Shown here: piece by piece, positions 3,993 through 64,000 of the stretch
Position numbering within the stretch: position 1 is the stretch's first letter
Layout: every line of letters starts with the position of its first letter
Source: Cloeon dipterum
Lineage: Eukaryota; Arthropoda; Insecta; Ephemeroptera; Baetidae
Assembly (NCBI RefSeq): GCF_949628265.1
Contig: NC_088786.1
Span: 37,593,681-37,657,680, forward strand
DNA length: 64,000 nt
Direction: 5' to 3'
The notes under the pieces: model-generated
Told to the model about the DNA's origin: nothing
What the model saw: only the letters and a program-made list of their open reading frames with translations
Database searches by the model: none
Made by a program: the position numbers and the translations under genes

Positions 3993-4782
3993 CTGCAAGA
4001 AAATATCACAAATCAAGTTTGTGTTTTGACCTTGGAGCGAAAATCACGGGCAGCAGGATCATTCTAAATAAAATATTTAATTAGATTTATATTAAATGGT
4101 CGAGAGAAAAATAGCCATAACAACAGTTAAAAATGTTAAATTTCAATGGAGCCCACGTTTTTATTACCTTTTGTTCTGTTCTTTATGAAGAGATCAGCTT
4201 GTGCTGGATAGAGAACGTCATACGTCATACAAGAAGCGAGTGAGAAGAAGAAATAGGAGAAATAGCAACATCGACAGTCACGCTACTTTGGAATGCACAG
4301 TGAAATCACTCACACCAGCCAACAACATATAGCGATAAGAGAACCAGGTGGATAATACCTTAAACTCGGGCTTTTTATTATAAAATTTAATCAGGATTAA
4401 TTTTTTGTGGCGAAATAGCCCTAAAAACGCTGTTAAATAAAACTAAGTTCCTTTTGGCTTTGGTGAAATACTGAAAATTTATTTAAAAAAACACAGTCAG
4501 GGTTGAGAGTTGGCAACCATACACGACAGGCATCAGCTGAAAATATTACTAAAATTTATTCTTCATCATACGCTCAGCTGTAAATTCGTTCCATCAAAGA
4601 ATTAAGCCATACAGACACAAAAAATTAACTTTCTTTTTAAGAAACCTATTATGCTATTATTTAACTCCCTCAGTCTGAAAATTACTAACGCTGTTTTGCC
4701 CCGAAAATAAATCCGTCTAGCTGATGTGAGCGCCATGCAGTTTCCGCTGCTGCTTGCATTCTTTCGTTTGTACCGTTTCCGC

Positions 4783-5270
4783 CGGTCAGAAGTCAATATG
4801 GCGTCTAAATCATGGAGGCCAATCAGGAGACAGTCCGCAGCGGCCAATCAGAATAAGCGTCGAAATATAGATGTGCGGAGCTAATAATTTCATTCTCGCG
4901 TATTTTGTTACATTTCCATTAGCCTGGTGTGCCATCTAATGGTCGATTCACCAATTAACAGAGGCTAAACAGCTGTTTGTAAAGAAATTACATTGGAATT
5001 TTACATTGAGCCCATTTTGGAGCTGCGCAGTAAACTTGTGCGCATCTTAAGCATGCGCAGAATATTCAGATCGCTTCTAAATCTAACAGGGACGCTGAAA
5101 CTTATCACTGCGCATGCGTGACCCAAATGAAAACCTTCTGCGCAGTCGCAATTTACACCGAGGGTCAGGCGACGTTCTGTGTTGGTTCTTTGTCGGTCAG
5201 AATTCAATATGGTGGCGAAATAATGGCGGCCAATCAGGAAAAAGTCCAGCGGCCAAGAGTTGCATGCCTA
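4783..5270 (+). repeat. Family B dispersed repeat, copy 2 (one and a half monomers)
   Basis: The same ordered motifs as copy 1 (CCGCCGGTCAGAAGTCAATA, CAATCAGGAGACAGTCC, GCGCAGTAAACTTGTGCGCA, GCATGCGTGACC). The 4.2-5.6 kb gap between LRR1 and LRR2 holds no other recognisable feature. ORFs here are short and run through the repeat. Confidence 0.6.
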
Positions 5271-5604
5271 AAAAGATTATCTGCATGCTTTTGGCCAATG
5301 CATGAGATGGTGGGATTGAGTCACGTGACTGCTGGAACTGCCTGTGCTTCACTGCTCTTGCTGAATATGCGCAGATGTCTCTACTATCGCCACTCTCACC
5401 TGATCCAGTTGTTGCTTTCTTCCCAGACAAAAAGGGGAATTTTCGTACTTAATAGACTAACGTACGTTTGTAGGTCAACTCGTGCACTTTCATTTGACAC
5501 CAATCTGGGCGTGGGTGCGTGGGTGGTATCAATAATTTGACACAGAGTATTCTCGTTTATAATTTTGCAATACTCAGAGATTTTATTGAAAAAAAACTTG
5601 GTGA

Positions 5605-8381
5605 TTATACAGAAATCACGGAATCAATTGCGTTTTTCAAATCCTTTAAAGGATCATAGGAAAATGATACTCTTCTTTTCTTTTTATAGTCTGTGTTCCG
5701 TCGCTGATCAACCATCTCAAATTTCTTGAGATTCCGCAAGATTTCACATCTCTTAATCCGAGCAATGACGGTGGCGTTGTCGCTGAAGTCAATTTTGGGT
5801 AGGTTAATGTAGATCTCTTCCAGGAGTGGTGCTGACAAAATGCTCGAAAAAGCGACTGGATCAGTAGAACCACTGCAATGGTTAATAATTAATAACGTTC
5901 ATTTAAACGAAAAATTGAGTTGGGATAAAAAACTCTCCTTGGAAAATAAAATCTGCACATTTCCTTGATTAAATTACTTCATTCATTGAGTAAACTTATA
6001 TCCTGCCTTCATCAATTAAAGCAGGAATACAGAAAAATCTTTGTTTTATTAAAAAGCTAGACCTTTGCTCAGTGAAATTTAAAAATAGGGCCATGAATTT
6101 AATTTTTAGAGTGTTTGAGAATTAATCGAATTAATAGTATTCTTGCCTATATAAATGTCTCCATTCAAATCGTTTCAGTCTGCGCATCGCTTCAACAGGT
6201 GCGTCGTTTCCAGTCAAATTGGAACGACACAGTTCCAACGACTCCAGGTTAGGGCATGACCTAAAAATCTCGTTAAAAGTCACGTTCTCCTTGGCGTCGA
6301 TGCCATCAAGAACCAGTTTTTGAAGGGTCTTCCCGTTTCTCTTCAAGAAACACCTTGCGTGTGCTGATGTCCCTGGGCAAGATAGCGTGGCAAATTTCAC
6401 TTCCGGAAAATGCGGAAACTCGTCCAATCTTTCAACGTTCTCCAGTTCCGTGGACGAAAACTGAAAGGATAAATATTGTTTTGAGATGTTACAATATTTA
6501 ATCAATATATATTCACCATAATTTCCGTGAGTTTAGTAAAACCTCGCACCAAATTTATCTGGGCAACTTTCTTTGGTGCAAGAATCAATTTAATATATCG
6601 CCCGACACCTTGAAATACTGGGAACGTTGGCAATGTAGATTCCAATCTCAGGTTTAGTTGCCTTTCGTGCAAATCTAACGCATAAATTACGATGAACATA
6701 AAGGTGTCTTTGAAGGCGTCGCATGATGGTTCAACGTCAATTACAACTTGAGAAACATTGATTTTCTCTAATTTTTCGCATTGGTGCGTCAATTCCGATA
6801 ATCCTGAGAGCTGCACGCAAATATTCTCAATAATCAGCGTTTTTAAGTTCTTCAGCTGAGCAATCGAGGCTAATTCTCTTTCCGCCAGTGAATGTTTCAG
6901 GTCGCGTGGACTGTAGATTATTAATTCCTTCAGATTAGGTGTGTTCGAGGCCAAACACCTAATTAACTGAAAATATTTGTTTGCAATTAGATCAATTAAT
7001 TAAAAATTGCACACATTATGTATTTTTTTATCACCTCTTGAAAGCGGGAATTTGACAAGGTAGAGGATTTGCAACGCATTCCTGTTAAATCGGAGGTGTC
7101 AAAATTTATGTATAACAGCGAGTTGATCAGGCAAGGCAGAGTTGCCCAAAGTTTGTCGATGTGATCATTCCCCTTGCCGTCACAATGCAAATGGTGGTTC
7201 TTTGCCTCATTCCACATAGCATCTAATTTATTCGATCTTATAGTTCCTGAAAATTTAAATAAATTTTGCAATTAGATTCTATTCTGAAGAGTAGAATATA
7301 TTTTTGGCAATGAAGTAGAGAGTTGCGTATCATTAATTATTGACCATTCACCAGTTGCATAAACCCTAAGTGTTCGAAGCCGCCAACAGATGGCGTTACC
7401 GTAGACTTTCGATTCTATGGCACTTTCGCTGCGATTTCAGACTCAATCTAGCTACTGTGCATTCCTCAATTAATTTGCTATTTTTTGACGTGCTGAAAAC
7501 CAAAATCGGTTCAGCCAATCGCCGTAGAATCGTGAAAAACTATTTTTTGAAATAAAAAAAATCTTTTCCAACGTTTCTACGGCGAATGGCTGAACCGATT
7601 TTGGTTTCCAGCACGTCAAAAAAAGCAAATTAATTTAAAGAAACAAAATAGCAAGATTGAGTCTGAAATCGCAGCGGAAATGCCTTAAAACCGCTTAAAA
7701 CAAATTTTTTAAGAAAGTCTGTGGTTGCGCCATCTGTTGGCGGCTTTAATTAATAACTAAGGGTTTATGCAATTAGTCAATTGACTGAGATTTTGAAACT
7801 ATGCTTCATTATTTAGTTTTCATTCTTTGTTTTTTATAGAACACAATAATATGAAATGGTCAAAATATTATTAACTTAAACATCGAATCCGATATGACTG
7901 TGAGTTTTCTATTGAGAGAAATCAAAAGAGATAAATTTATTGGATAGAAATACTTGCCTAAAAACAGTTTAACACAGTTCTTGTCGTAGCAATCGATGTT
8001 GTCCAACACGGCGTCAACGGATATTTGATATAGGCTGCGTATCACCGTCTGTAATTTAATAGTAATTAATAATTTAATTGTTTTCGGCCTTCAGGGTATA
8101 ACGTTTTGCCTGCGGCACCCACAACGAAATTCCCTGTTCACATAAGCAGCACATATACGTGGCAAGAGTTTTAGTGTTTTTATCCTCATTTTTTTTTGTA
8201 ATTAATTGATCTCTCCAACAGGTGTGCATTTTACGATGAAAATTCGGTCTATTTAATTGTTTTCCGCTGCTTTGTTTCCTTTTAATTAACAATACATAAT
8301 ATTTTGGACTAAAATGAGAATAAACAATTAATAATAATAATATCAAACTCAAGTGCGAGTGCTAAAAACTCTTCTTACCAT
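5605..8381 (-). CDS. LRR-like family protein, member 2 (LRR2), 445 aa
   Basis: Six exons on the minus strand: 8381-8379 (ATG only), 8048-7958, 7246-7035, 6966-6517, 6460-6147 and 5872-5605. They sum to 446 codons with every phase consistent. Exon 1 contributes only the start codon: the ATG is followed directly by the donor GTAAGA, as in LRR4. The product has an N-terminal helix (LYQISVDAVLDNIDCYDKN), the family block HIDKLWATLPCLINS, leucine-rich segments (NTPNLKELIIYSPRDLKHSL, ELASIAQLKNLKTLIIENI), a DEFPHFPEV motif, and a closing SSILSAPLLEEIYINLPK segment. Exon lengths match the paralogues (212 nt exon 3, 450 nt exon 4). Donors of exon 2 (GCAAGT) and exon 5 (GCAAGA) are GC rather than GT. 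A fold-back element occupies intron 2. Function unknown; LRR solenoid, probably protein-binding. Confidence 0.75.
7345..7780. mobile_element. Fold-back MITE, family A copy 1
   Basis: Outer arms read CCAGTTGCATAAACCCTAAG and, inverted at the other end, CTAAGGGTTTATGCAA. The next segment, GCCGCCAACAGATGG, is mirrored as CCATCTGTTGGCGG. The centre also pairs: CCAAAATCGGTTCAGCCAAT with its complement. The whole 430 bp can fold into one long hairpin. It lies in LRR2 intron 2. Four further copies are in the window. Confidence 0.8.
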
Positions 8382-16989: not shown

Positions 16990-18860
16990 ATTATTATTGT
17001 TAGGCATATCAGGCCGATGGAAATGTAACAAAATGCGTGGGAATGAAATTATTAGGTTGGCGCACGCCCCTTTTTTGACTCTTCTGATTGGCCGTTGGAC
17101 TGTCTCTCCTGATTGGTAGCCACTTTTTTTTACTTCTAACCGGCGGGAATAAACACAGATCGCAACCTAGGTCCTGATGGGAATTTCGACTGCGCAGAAG
17201 GTTTTTATTTGGGTCACGCATGCGCAGTAGTGAGTTTTAGTCTCCCCGTGAGATTAAGAAGCGATTCGAACATACTGCGCATGCTTAAGATGCGCATACG
17301 TTTATTGCGCAGCTTCAAAATGAGCGTATATTCCAACAACTGCAAAAATGTTAATTTTAGCACATTTATCATGAAAATACTTTCAGAAAAATTAATAGTT
17401 TTGTTGTTATTTATATTTATTAACAGCTAATTAGCCCGGTAATTGGCGAATCGACCGTTAGATGGCACGTCAGGCTAATGGAATTGTAACAAAATACGCG
17501 GGAGTGAAATTATTGGGTCCGCACGCCCCTTTTTCGACGCTTCTGATTGGCCGCTGGACTGTCTCCTGATTGGCCTCGATTATTTCGACGCCAATAATCG
17601 ACTTCTGACCGGTGGGAACCAAAACAGATCGCAACCCAGGCTCAGATGAGAATTTCGACTGCGCAGAAGGTTTTTATTTGGTTCAAGCATGCGCAGTAAT
17701 GAGTTTTAGTCTCCCCGTGAGATCAATAAGCGATCTGAACATACTGCGCATGCTTAAGATATGCGCAAGTTTACTGCGCAGCTTCAAAATGGGCGTGTAT
17801 TCAAACAAATATGTAAATTCCTAGCCCACCGGGGTCCGGGTTGCGATCTGTGTTTGTTCCCGCCTGTAAGAAGTTAAGATGGCGTCGAAATATTGGAGGC
17901 CAATCAGGACACAGTCCAGTGCGTGGCCAATCAGAAGCGTCGAAAAAGAGGCGTACTGACCTTATAATATCATTGCGGTGTATTCTATTACATTTAATCA
18001 TCCTAACGTGCCATGTAACGGTTGATTCGCCAATTAACGGGCTAATTAGCTGTTCGTAAAGAAATTACAACAAAATTATTCATTTTGTTGAAGCTTGAAG
18101 CTATTTTCATGATAAATTAATGAATTAAATGGATGCTCTCAAGGTGCTCTAATTAATTTTTTATAGTTGTTTGAATAAACGCCCATTTTGAAGCTGCGCA
18201 GTAAACTTGTGCGCATCTTAAGCATGCGCAGTATGTTCAGATCGTTTCCTAATCTCACAGGGAGATTAAAACTCATTACTGCGCATTCGTGACCTTGATT
18301 AGAACCTTCTGCGCAGTCGAAATTCCCATCTGGGCCGGGTAGCGATCTGTGTTGGTTCCCGCCAGTAATAAGAAGCCAGATGGCGTCGGAATATTGGAGG
18401 CCAATCAGGAGTCAGCCCAGCGGACATTCAGAAGCATCAAAAAGGGGCGTGCCGACCCAATAATTTCCTTCCCGCGTATTTTGTTACATTTCCATTAGCC
18501 TCATCTAACGGCGCCGGAAAAACCGGCTTAAGTGGCCCCGGCGGGACCGATCTCAGGGTGGGTTACCCAGAGAAAGGTCGTCATGATACCTCAGATGGTA
18601 GGGCTTGGCGTGACCTTTCGATCGAGACTTCACGAGTTGAAATCCCTCAACCCGTTGAATTTTAACATCAATCAATTTCGACTTTTCCAAAATTCACACA
18701 TTCAAAAATTCGTAGCAATTAAATAAACATTCCAATGTTCCAAAACCGGAGACGATGGGACGCGCCCCGCCGAGGCGCGTCGAACGGTCCCCATCTAACC
18801 ATCTTTGCGCCTCCCAGCGCCGATTTCTTTAATTGAAATGCCAGTAATTGGTCCCTGAAG
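16990..18860. repeat. Compound inverted repeat, arm A (families B and C)
   Basis: Two minus-oriented B monomers (about 16990-17430 and 17430-17825) face two plus-oriented ones (17825-18080 and 18180-18500), so the block is itself a large palindrome. A distinct 330-bp module (family C, 18505-18860) follows, with GCGCCGGAAAAACCGGCTTA at its start and GGTTACCC, TGGTAGGGCTTGGCG and CCCTCAACCCGTTG inside. The segment 17786-18860 is matched in reverse complement by 62951 to the window end. Module C has A-box-like and B-box-like words and could be tRNA-derived, but this is weak. No gene is supported. Confidence 0.75.
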
Positions 18861-20804: not shown

Positions 20805-21635
20805 TCACAATTTTAGTACCTGAAAAAAGCGAAATTTGAATTTTAAAACTGATGAAATTTGAAAAACTACGAAGATGAATGTCGATTTTAAAAATTTGGA
20901 TTTTAAGCGAATTGGAGTTACTGTTAAATCAATTTTTGGTGTCCTGAGACGCCATTTTGGAAGCTGATGAAAAATCAAGTTATAGTTAGTTATTAGTTGT
21001 AAGGCTGATTGAAGAACGCCTGCAAAGGTATGCAACCTGCGTGACTTGTTTCTCAAATTATGTTTGTATCGATCCCCCAGTTGAATTTAGCTTTAAGATT
21101 TAGACTAATTAGAAATATAATTACTACTGATTCTTAAAGACCATGATTTTGATTTTGTAACAATGAAAGACCAATTCGAAACGGAAAGAAAACGCTAAAA
21201 AAATTGTCTATACAATAAGAAGTGTTTTATTAATTTATTATAATTTATAATCTATAATTTATCGGTAATTTGCAACAGCTTTAATCATTATAAATCTATA
21301 TAAATAAAATAAAACAGCTAAAATTCTAGTTACCATTATTTAAATTTTGAAAAATGAAATAACTTTTGCCGCTACTCGAACATCACCTAAGAGAATTTTT
21401 TGGAGAAAATTTCGAAAAATTCTTCGAGATAATATCGCGGGAAGAATTCAATCGGGAAAAGCACGCTGAGTTATAATGTGTAATTATGGTTTTTGTGCTC
21501 AAATGGTTTGCCACTGAAACGGCCAACAGCTGCCACAAGATCGCAAGAAACTCGAAATTCAAACTCGATCGCCATTTCATCATCATTATCTTCGATTCAG
21601 AATTTAAAAGTAATTTTCGCAATTCGCAGCTGTAA

Positions 21636-21740
21636 AAAGGGGGCGTGGTAGATAAACATCGCGGTTGGGAGAGGCCTGGCCGCTGGTGCTGCCATCTTTG
21701 GGTGACACCGAGCGAGAGCGAAGAATGAAAAAGTAGGGCG
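21636..21740 (-). pseudogene. Stray fragment of the RPB1 3' end
   Basis: GGCCTGGCCGCTGGTGCTGC followed by CATCTTTGGGTGACACCGAG matches the RPB1 last exon at about 28668-28705, where it encodes the [11 protein letters not shown] stretch. The preceding AAAGGGGGCGTGGT resembles the RPB1 3' flank. Similarity ends on both sides and no useful frame remains. It belongs with the array at 27.2-28.5 kb but is 6 kb away. A weaker piece (AAAAAGGGGGCGTGGTATTT) is at 22083-22102. Confidence 0.5.
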
Positions 21741-22267
21741 TTTGGCCGGTCTTCGGTTTCGGTCTCTCTCTCGTCGGCTTGGTTCGGCCATTATTAGACA
21801 TTATTGCTGCTGCCCAGAGAGGTCAAAAGTTCATCCAGGTGAGATTTCGACTTGAAAAATGTGGAAATTCTTCATAAAAGTCTCCATGAATTTGCCAGAA
21901 AACTGAAATGTTAACGTACGCTCTGATTGGCCGAGATTTAAACAAACGCTCATGGAGTCTTATTTTAATTTTTTAATAATTCGGTGTTCAAATAGTGCCG
22001 TTGCAGCAGCCAGAACGCGAACGCAAGAAACTCGCCATTCTCGCCATTTCATCATTCTTTTGTTTCAGATCGAGTATTTTTGTAATTCTGAAAAAGGGGG
22101 CGTGGTATTTACATGCCCTGGATCGTCCTGGATATTTGTTTCCTACGCCAGCAGCTTGCAAAATTTTTCAATAATTAGAATTCCTTCCGCGACACTATTC
22201 ACATTATTTAATTATTCGCGATCTAGCAATTAAAATGGAAAATCATTAATTTATCGCCGATTTTTCT

Positions 22268-26620: not shown

Positions 26621-27189
26621 TTTATCATTTTCCCGCGTGCAAATCCCGTGATTCTTCAAGAATTTCAATGAATTCTCCGGCAAAGCGGGTAAAAACGCTC
26701 TGATTAGCTGAGATTCAAACGTTCTTGCAGTATTATTAGTAAATTGATGTTCAAAAGCGCCTCTGCAGCAATTAAAAGTTATGATCAGACCGCGCTCTTA
26801 CCGCTCGCATGTCCTGATTTTCCCGCGAATTTTATTTTTCCTCTACACAATTGACTTATTTATGGCAAAAATTCAGGAATTTAATCTATTTACATAACAT
26901 AAAATTTATGTGGGTGTCTTAGATCTGAAATAAAAAATGCAATTTATATTTACATCTTTATTAAATTAAAATAGAGCGTTGATAACATTCAGTTTTCAAG
27001 ATGAAGAATTACAAATGCAAAATTTAAGCAGCGAGAAGAAAAATGCAGGAGACGACAAACGGCAACGCTGCCGATGCGTCGTAACGAACCAATATGCTAG
27101 TGTCACTAAAGTAAAAACGATCGATAGTTCCTCGTCGTTCACTCCCGTTCCTGACTAAATCAGACTAATCAGAGTTCAATGTCCTTTTT

Positions 27190-28510
27190 ATCGAGTGTTT
27201 GCAAGTCGTCTAGCCTGGCCACTGGTGCTGCCGTCTTTAGGGCTCAAAAGCGAATATAGCGGCCCGAGCAGGACTGAGCAGGACGGTGCTGCGGCGAGGA
27301 GAAAAACACAAGAGAGGGCAAGGTTGCCGATGTGTCGCAACGAGTCTAGATGCAAGTGTCACACAACAATAAAAAGATTCATGCCTCGTCGTTCACTCCC
27401 GTTATTGACTCAGTCTTTGTATTTACACTGTTGAAAAGGGGGCGTGGTGTTTACATGTCCTCTGGCCTGGCCGCTGGTGCTGCCGTCTTTGGGCTCAAGG
27501 GCGAGGAGAGTCACAATTTACAGTAAAAACAATTTACATGCCTTGTCCTTCACTCCCATTATTGATTCACAGTCTTTTTAAATACACATTTTCATTGTAG
27601 AAAAGGGGGGCGGGGGGCGTGGTATTTACATGTCGTCAGGGTCGTAGGCGCGTAGGCGGGCGACGTGGGGCTGTAGCTGGAAAGGTGGGCGAGTAGCTGG
27701 CCTGGCCGCTGGTGCTGCTGCCCTTGGGCTTGGGCTCGAGGGCAAGTATCGGCCCGAACGGGGTGGTGCTGCGGCGAGGAGTCACAATTTACAGTAAAAA
27801 CAATTTACACGCCTCGTCGTTCACTCCCGTTAATGCATGAGTTTGTATTTACACTGCTGAAAAGGGGGCGTGGTGTTTACATGTCCTCTGGCCTGGCCTG
27901 GGCCTGGCCGCTGGTGCTGCAGACTTTGGGCTCAAGCGAGAGTAGCGGCGAGGAGAGTCACAATTTACATGCCCCGTCGTTCACTCCCATTTTTGATTCA
28001 CAGTCTTTTTATTTACACATTTTCATTGTGGAAAGGGGGGGGTGGTATTTACATGTCCTCTGGCCTGGCCGCTGGTGCTGCCGTCCTTCGGCTCAAGGGC
28101 GAGTAACGGCCCGAGCGGGACGGTGCTGCGTGGTGGAGAGTCACAATTTACACGTCTCGTCGTTCACTCCCATTAATGATTGTCTTTGTATTTACACTGT
28201 TGAAAAGGGGGCGTGGTGTTTACATGTAGCCTGGCCGCTGGTGCTGCCGTCTTTTGAACTCAAGGGCGAATAGCAGCCCGAGCAGGACTGAGCAGGACGG
28301 TGCTGCGGCGAGGAGAGTCACAATTTACAGTAGAAACAATTTACATGCCTCGTCGTTCACTCCCATTATTGATTCAGTCTTTGTATTTACACTGTTGAAC
28401 AGGGGGCGTGGTATTTACATGTCGTCTGGCCTGGCCGATGGTGCTGCCGTCCTTGGGCTCAAGGGCGAGTAGCGGCCCGAGCAGGACAGTGCTGCGGCGA
28501 GGAGAGTCAC
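27190..28510 (-). repeat. Tandem array of rearranged RPB1 3'-end fragments
   Basis: Seven irregular units of about 160-250 bp lie directly downstream of the RPB1 stop. Each carries the same mosaic: GTCGTTCACTCCCATT and AAAAGGGGGCGTGGTGTTTA from the RPB1 3' flank, then CTGGCCGCTGGTGCTGCCGT from the codons near its end, then a jump to AGTAGCGGCCCGAGCAGGAC and GTGCTGCGGCGA, which correspond to about 28.82-28.86 kb of the last exon. Landmark starts are near 27213, 27465, 27700, 27902, 28065, 28222 and 28425, with the parent at 28671. The unit at about 27.6-27.75 kb keeps the most coding sequence, including the stop region. These are DNA copies with shared internal deletions, not functional exons. 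Confidence 0.75.
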
Positions 28511-28596
28511 AATTTACACGCCTCGTCGTTCACTCCCATTTTTGATTCAGTCTTTTTAAATACATATTTTCATTGTTGAAGAGGGGGGCGTGGTGT

Positions 28597-41820
<13,224 letters not shown>

Positions 41821-62311: not shown

Positions 62312-62559
<248 letters not shown>

Positions 62560-62564
62560 TTGCG

Positions 62565-62950
62565 TTACGCTTTTCTGTTACGCGTAACATCCAGACGCGT
62601 CACGGGTAGGGCGTTACGCGTCACGGGTAGGGCGTTACGCGTGATGGGTAGGATGTTACGCGTAACGGGTAGGGCGTTACGCGTAACGGGTAGGGCGTTA
62701 CGACGCGTAACGGGTAGGGCGTTACGCGTAACGGGTGGGGCGTTACGCGTGACGGGTGGGGCGTTACGCGTAACGGGTGGGGCGTTACGCGTAACGGGTG
62801 GGGCGTTACGCGTGACGGGTGGGGCGTTACGCGTAACGGGTGGGGCGTTACGCATGACGGGTGGGGCGTTACGCGTAACGGGTAGGGCGTTACGACGCGT
62901 GACGGGTAGGGCGTTACGCATAACGGGTAGGGCGTTACGCGTCACGGGTG
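62565..62950. repeat. 21-bp GC-rich minisatellite
   Basis: About 18 units of GGGTAGGGCGTTACGCGTAAC with variants GGGTGGGGC, CGTGACGGG and a few 3-bp insertions (TTACGACGCGT). Each unit holds the palindrome GTTACGCGTAAC. Since 21 is a multiple of three, both strands show long open frames (RVTGRAL and TRNALPV repeats); these are by-products. It lies exactly between the RPB1 pseudo-exon and the inverted repeat arm B. Confidence 0.9.
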
Positions 62951-64000
62951 TCTTCAGGAACCAATTTCTGGCATTTCAATTATAGAAATCGGTGCTGGGA
63001 GGCGCAAAGATGGTTAGATGGGGATGGGGACGTCCCATCGTTTCCGGTTTTGGAACATTGGGACGTTTTTTGAATTATTACGAATTTTTGAATGTGTGAA
63101 TTTTGGAAAAGTTGAAATTGATTGATGTTAAAATTCAACGGGTTGAGGGATTTCAACTCGTGAAGTCTTGATCGAAATGTCACGCCAAGCTCTACCATCT
63201 GACCTTTCTATGGGTTACCCACCCTGAGATCGATCCCACCGGGGCCGCTTAAGCCTGTTTTTCCGGCGCCGTTAGATGGCACATGAGGCTAATGGATATG
63301 TAACAAAATACGCGGGAAGGAAATTATTAGGTCGGCACGCCCCTTTTTGACGCTTCTGATTGGCCGCTGGATTGACTCCTGATTGGCCTCCATTATTTCG
63401 ACACCATATTCACTTCTGACCGGCGGGAACCAACACAGATCGCTACTCGGTCCCGATGGGAATTTCGACTGCGCAGAAGGTTCTAATCAAGGTCACGAAT
63501 GCGCAGTAATGAGTTTTAATCTCCCTGTGAGATTAGGAAACGATCTGATCATACTGCGCATGCTTAAGATGCGCACAAGTTTACTGCGCAGCTTCAAAAT
63601 GGGCGTTTATTCAAACCGCTATAGAAAATTAATTAGAGCACCTTGAGAGTATCCATTTAATTCATTAATTTATCATGAAAATAGCTTCAAGCTTCAACAA
63701 AATGAATAATTTTGTTGTAATTTCTTTACGAACAGCTGATTAGCCCGTTAATTGGCGAATCAACCGTTAGATGGCACGTTAGGATGATGAAATGTAATAG
63801 AATACACCGCAATGATATTATAAGGTCAGTACGCCTCTTTTTCGACGCTTCTGATTGGCCACGCACTGGACTGTGTCCTGATTGGCCTCCATTATTTCGA
63901 CTCCATCTTAACTTCTCACAGGCAAGAACCAACACAGATTCTAACCCGGACCCCGCTGGGCTAGGAATTTGTATATTTGATTGGATACACGCCCATTTTG
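62951..64000. repeat. Compound inverted repeat, arm B (runs off the window)
   Basis: Reverse complement of 17786-18860: module C (62951-63275) first, then minus-oriented B monomers with TTCGACTGCGCAGAAGG, TGCGCATGCTTAAGATGCGC and GCGCAGCTTCAAAATGGGCG, ending in a second monomer of opposite sense. Arm B lacks about 25 bp present in arm A's module C (around GCCCCGCCGAGGCGCG). The match is still continuing at base 64000. Confidence 0.8.

Follow-up and report, generated by a model that had tools for sequence, protein, structure and literature searches.

A tandem array of internally deleted RPB1 gene-end copies directly downstream of RPB1 in Cloeon dipterum

Minisatellite and satellite repeats are made of head-to-tail copies which are altered by unequal exchange. 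The Sdic cluster of Drosophila melanogaster is described as a partial or chimeric duplicate with about 10 copies arrayed in tandem (PMC3449122), and a table entry of the same source gives AFPIII as a partial duplicate in a tandem array (PMC3449122). NORAD is presented as a separate lncRNA that is conserved in mammals, is supported by PAR-CLIP and contains 12 units of about 300 nt (PMC4947167), its motif being given as UGURUAUA (PMC4947167).

Here we analyse a 64-kb stretch of the Cloeon dipterum genome (hereafter the window; contig NC_088786.1, positions 37,593,681 to 37,657,680), in which copies of the end of the RPB1 gene lie directly behind that gene. This array resembles Sdic in the sequence of an incomplete duplication, internal deletions and tandem amplification of the rearranged unit, and AFPIII in a partial gene duplication followed by a tandem array. 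Titles and abstract beginnings from the literature on RPB1 or UTR tandem copies, arrays of partial duplicates and Pumilio/NORAD gave no array of RPB1 gene ends. Our preferred reading, held with good confidence, is that the array consists of tandem, partial and internally deleted duplicates of the RPB1 3' end, which are decaying and probably lie within the RPB1 3'UTR.

Parent gene and anatomy of the units

RPB1 domains were recognised by Pfam in all five exon frames tried, and a further exon had its best PDB matches in RPB1 of Pol II. Translation of the last exon placed the stop codon at 28599-28597 of the minus strand. Right downstream of it, seven head-to-tail units of 176-271 bp occupy 27037-28505 of the minus strand and, according to the alignment, all seven are contiguous and keep the orientation of the RPB1 gene. 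The features are the following:

28597-29301, minus strand: last exon of RPB1 (end of the CTD), parent of the copies (translation; Pfam PF05001)
28506-28596, minus strand: U0 flank, the proximal 3' flank of RPB1 itself (alignment; ungapped identity)
28317-28505, minus strand: unit U1 (alignment; nhmmer)
28140-28316, minus strand: unit U2 (alignment; nhmmer)
27957-28139, minus strand: unit U3 (alignment; nhmmer)
27781-27956, minus strand: unit U4 (alignment; nhmmer)
27510-27780, minus strand: unit U5 (alignment; nhmmer)
27302-27509, minus strand: unit U6 (alignment; nhmmer)
27037-27301, minus strand: unit U7, the distal one (alignment; nhmmer)

The initial annotation had proposed an array of RPB1 gene-end copies downstream of the gene at 27190-28510. 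The array is real, as attested by its seven units and by the best match of the parent tail (28506-28700) to it, which reached 225 bits, whereas none of 60 dinucleotide shuffles of the array exceeded 24.7. The start of the proposed range had been set about 150 bp too late, since homology runs to about 27028, where that of U7 ends. An nhmmer profile of U0-U7 recovered all eight with E-values from 1e-50 to 5e-66, a result that indicates coherence and not independent proof, as the profile was built from the same eight units (the U0 parent tail plus U1-U7). The array was absent from the TRF listing of tandem repeats.

The first 91 nt past the RPB1 stop codon, the U0 flank, are themselves array-like (ungapped identity of 0.83-0.91 to the flanks of U1-U6) and abut the CTD piece of U1 directly. 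Read in gene direction, a full unit comprises a CTD island with an 11-residue linker, a YSPSS-like bit, a 10-residue PKDG piece, the last codons and a 3' flank that measures 85-167 nt depending on the unit. The island around the CTD linker is kept in five of the seven units; the first CTD island is truncated in U4 and gone in U6. Last codons with ATGTAA are present in 6/7 units, the exception being U7, which has no stop word and whose flank has diverged to an ungapped identity of 0.62-0.69 to the other units. In addition, U6 and U7 carry a longer 3' flank extension, and U2 and U7 have in common 10 bp inserted within the CTD piece. The CTD sequence retained in the units is mainly its non-heptad part and the flanks of U0-U6 show an ungapped identity of 0.81-0.93 among them, so that the similarity cannot be reduced to the low-complexity composition of the CTD.

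Units also share deletions with respect to the parent. The one immediately ahead of the PKDG piece is found in 7/7 units. Another, after GSGRY, is clear in five of the seven, with U4 ambiguous (its island being truncated) and U6 lacking that side. In the tail, a deletion before DDM* removes a stretch coding for 19 residues in 6/7 units (56 bp, or 61 bp in U2), and U5 alone retains this stretch, with small indels (104 bp, 89%). The deleted order previously attributed to all units in common holds therefore in full ahead of PKDG, but it is clear in only 5/7 after GSGRY and, with U5 keeping the tail, in 6/7 before the last codons. The proposal that an already rearranged copy was amplified is supported by these data, as the deletion before PKDG is common to all seven units and that after GSGRY to five.

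Tandem arrays are generally prone to assembly errors, and an artefact of this kind was considered. It is extremely improbable: ungapped columns show differences of 9-29% between units, which also have private indels and so do not represent a single sequence repeated by the assembly, and the contig is 43 Mb long.

Other repeats were observed in and around the gene. Between the last two RPB1 exons, a 440-bp unit is repeated about 2.9 times in tandem (window 29478-30743), and parts of this array are also present elsewhere in the window. One of the RPB1 introns holds a dispersed repeat (about 37244-37893), which has at least 39 other places with 75-80% identity among the 40 scored of 1153 candidates. 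Finally, an inverted pair (18000-18860 and 62952-63785), 89% identical, spans at least 0.85 kb, a minimum because the query started at 18000, and more partial copies of it occur near 3.3-5.3 kb and 17-18 kb.

Locality, relics and history of the array

A search of the 190-Mb genome with the PKDG piece, allowing up to three mismatches, gave nine matches, all at the array locus and on the minus strand, which correspond to the parent, U1-U7 and a relic, RB; the reversed pattern, used as control, gave none. The flank word, again with up to three mismatches, matched 20 times in the genome, 8 at the array locus and 12 elsewhere. All five matches with 0-1 mismatch were at the locus. The 15 with 2-3 mismatches comprised three at the locus (U0, U3 and RB) and the 12 located elsewhere (one with two mismatches and eleven with three), the control giving 5. 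When the array DNA was the query, only the array locus was matched, in at least four places in one search and at least nine in another. Dispersed genome copies, as would characterise a transposable element, were thus not found, the matches of both the array and the PKDG piece being confined to the array locus (counts with the array query are lower bounds); the short flank word did have the 12 weaker matches elsewhere, versus 5 in its control. A self-BLAST rule for local arrays returned no interval in five stretches taken as samples (42 kb), including one picked around the RPB1 fragment at 36.56 Mb described below, versus 12 in the 64-kb window, the RPB1 array included; this baseline is too small, and the window too rich in repeats, to rate the rarity of the array.

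Two relics of the gene end were identified further downstream:

22031-22119, minus strand: relic RA, last-codon/stop word and start of the 3' flank, degenerate (nhmmer E 2.8e-7)
21529-21720, minus strand: relic RB, PKDG piece with upstream bases and a degenerate flank (nhmmer E 5.4e-11)

RA has the flank word without mismatches. In RB, whose PKDG piece is at 21.67 kb, the nine bases upstream of the piece match the parent and are deleted in every array unit. Its match to the parent covers exon positions 597-636 (90%), and a 30-bp block keeps 28 of 30 parent bases inside otherwise heavily decayed sequence. Because RB holds bases absent from all units, undeleted gene-end copies existed, and these may either predate the deletion of the array or have arisen by separate copying.

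The genome has other RPB1 fragments. One is a 230-bp piece of exon and adjoining intron at 62330-62559 of the window, on the opposite strand and 96% identical to its source at 32459-32686. It is found about 21 kb past the 5'-most recognised RPB1 exon (near 41.4 kb) and adjoins a 21-bp tandem array (62595-62949). Another is a degenerate multi-exon fragment at C1:36.56 Mb, about 1.06 Mb from the gene (about 4510-6049 of stretch L059), with matches that extend into intron sequence, stops in the three frames read and weaker matches to the RPB1 last exon up to 6221. This fragment was tried as a guide to the end of the RPB1 mRNA and rejected because its matches enter intron sequence; it gave no match to 27037-28900 at E up to 1.

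The existence of such fragments would fit a history in which RPB1 mRNA ends were reverse-transcribed and inserted repeatedly, giving the units as retrocopies. Nevertheless, 7/7 units are in tandem, in gene orientation and with common internal deletions, and A-tails are absent from the unit junctions in the alignment. Moreover, the fragment at 62.3 kb includes intron sequence and that at 36.56 Mb has, by coordinates, matches into an intron, so both are DNA copies. We consider that the units have hardly any chance of being retrocopies.

The relationships among the units were also studied. None of the five inner branches of a maximum-likelihood tree of U0-U7 was supported, and 67 of the 105 pairs formed by the 15 informative sites were incompatible. 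Compatibility was higher for near sites when 2, 3 or 5 neighbours were taken (permutation values of 0.016, 0.006 and 0.0048, respectively) and was not significant for nearest neighbours alone (0.19). Such a conflict of site pairs with a single tree points to unequal crossing-over or conversion between units, and the data modestly suggest that the units have recombined or been converted. In addition, similar words were identified in the distal flank (CTCGCTGC), in the CTD (GTCGCCGC) and at the unit junction (CTCGCCGC), and this short word may mark the site of the first junction.

Under our preferred reading of local duplication and decay, the first event would have been a tandem duplication reaching from the CTD linker past the stop codon into the 3' flank, and short words that match between the CTD and the flank may have mediated it. 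The duplicated copy would then have shed heptad-coding DNA, and the shortened unit would have multiplied through unequal crossing-over. Recombination would have partly homogenised the units and may also have pulled in the parent's own 3' flank. The relics, 6-7 kb away and one of them without the internal deletion, would represent an older generation of copies or separate copying. The array would now decay without detectable constraint, and at least some of it is probably transcribed within the RPB1 3'UTR in the manner of passive cargo.

Several results count against this reading: RB keeps its 30-bp block, compatibility is not significant for nearest neighbours alone, the flank word matches elsewhere more often than its control (12 versus 5), and certain sense-strand words far exceed shuffles, as described below. 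In addition, in the PKDG piece, 12 of the 18 differences between copies (U1-U7 plus RB) and parent are at third codon positions (p 0.004, counted per cell); the share is 7/13 (p 0.10) when distinct changes are counted. An excess of this type is not predicted by the pure decay of copies, and could be explained if these recorded earlier synonymous states of a changing parent.

Transcription and possible functions

Neither AATAAA nor ATTAAA was found between the RPB1 stop codon and 28013, where the only AATAAA inside the array is placed, in U3, and this single hexamer equals the shuffle expectation (mean 0.86). A candidate signal was detected past the array:

26957-26962, minus strand: AATAAA with a T-rich stretch after it, a candidate for the poly(A) signal (motif scan)

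The positions of these hexamers make it likely that the array is included in the RPB1 3'UTR; since the hexamer count of the array is at the shuffle level, we go no further than likely.

A coding role of the units was rejected, as no ORF is kept in the sense units and stops occur in all three sense frames. An antisense frame of 198 aa (27677-28273) was likewise discarded because it had no Pfam match at E 0.1. The initial annotation had also contemplated that transcribed segments pair or compete with the parent. Pairing is not supported: the copies are direct repeats, so that RNA copies from one strand lack complementarity to each other. Folding of the first 700 nt was no better than that of shuffled sequences (z 0.57), 14 of 20 being equally stable or more so. 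Among U1-U6 (6/7 units), 1 of 25 consensus pairs was changed on both sides. RNA structure in the array was rejected given the lack of any fold or covariation signal over these ranges, and scanning the window against Rfam with gathering thresholds gave no matches. The copies may, however, compete for a binding protein that they share.

The words to which such a protein could bind were examined. UGUANAUA appears 8 times on the sense strand of 27037-28599, always as UGUAAAUA, and UGUAAA 20 times, both being absent from the antisense strand, with shuffle means of 0.03 and 0.45, respectively; the unit copies are, however, not independent, and copying multiplies any word. From U0 to U7, the units contain 0, 2, 1, 2, 1, 1, 1 and 0 UGUAAAUA, the nearest to the RPB1 stop codon being at 28419, and 8 of the 12 minus-strand UGUAAAUA in the 64-kb window are inside the array. 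Three flank segments with UGUAAAUA, placed on U1, were compared with random flank segments over the 86 gap-free flank columns of U0-U6 (U7 left out), giving a conservation of 0.75 versus 0.70 (p 0.35). In the same columns, the longest invariant run was 9, versus a permuted mean of 9.6. Selection on the UGUAAAUA segments or on invariant runs was rejected, as neither showed excess conservation.

These words could make the array a functional 3'UTR element, in which UGUAAAUA would bind Pumilio and either tune the RPB1 mRNA or soak up Pumilio. The sense-strand excess of UGUAAAUA and UGUAAA over shuffles fits this idea, the genome has PUF repeats (7 matches on C5), and NORAD likewise consists of an array in which Pumilio sites were duplicated in tandem (PMC4947167). 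On the contrary, UGUAAAUA segments are no better conserved than the neighbouring flank, the U0 parent flank and U7 are devoid of any UGUAAAUA, and the word copies are not independent. A Pumilio function appears thus very unlikely. Equally hard to credit is that the gene-end copies were retained for the UGUAAAUA they added to the 3'UTR, so that the RPB1 mRNA, by copying its own coding sequence and flank, would have become a transcript that binds Pumilio as NORAD does.

The array might instead act as DNA, with GGGCGTGG and TRTTTAC, which we take to be a KLF/Sp-like and a forkhead-like word, respectively, acting on RPB1 from its 3' side as an enhancer or an insulator. In fact, the parent flank, units U1-U6 and relic RA all have TGTAAAYACCAC followed by a C run. 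However, neither the runs nor the segments with the forkhead-like word show extra conservation and the word is lost in U7, so we give a DNA element very little credence. Most likely, the array is mostly ordinary genome turnover, an unremarkable remnant of DNA duplicated locally.

Comparison with known systems

The interest of the locus lies in the steps of partial gene duplication that are preserved behind an essential gene, namely the shared deletions, the U5 exception, the signs of recombination and the relics. It also illustrates coding sequence becoming likely 3'UTR and a regulatory word being enriched by copying alone, and this enrichment is a caution against taking clusters of motifs as a sign of selection.

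Sdic units have an ORF and come from two source genes and AFPIII units encode a new protein, whereas RPB1 units, of about 0.2 kb, have no ORF and are in a likely 3'UTR. Like minisatellites and satellites, the array is composed of head-to-tail copies probably altered by unequal exchange, but its source is the adjoining gene end and TRF did not report it. Finally, NORAD, a separate and conserved lncRNA with PAR-CLIP support, is the closest functional analogue for a putative Pumilio role of the RPB1 array, both having tandem-duplicated units rich in Pumilio-type words.
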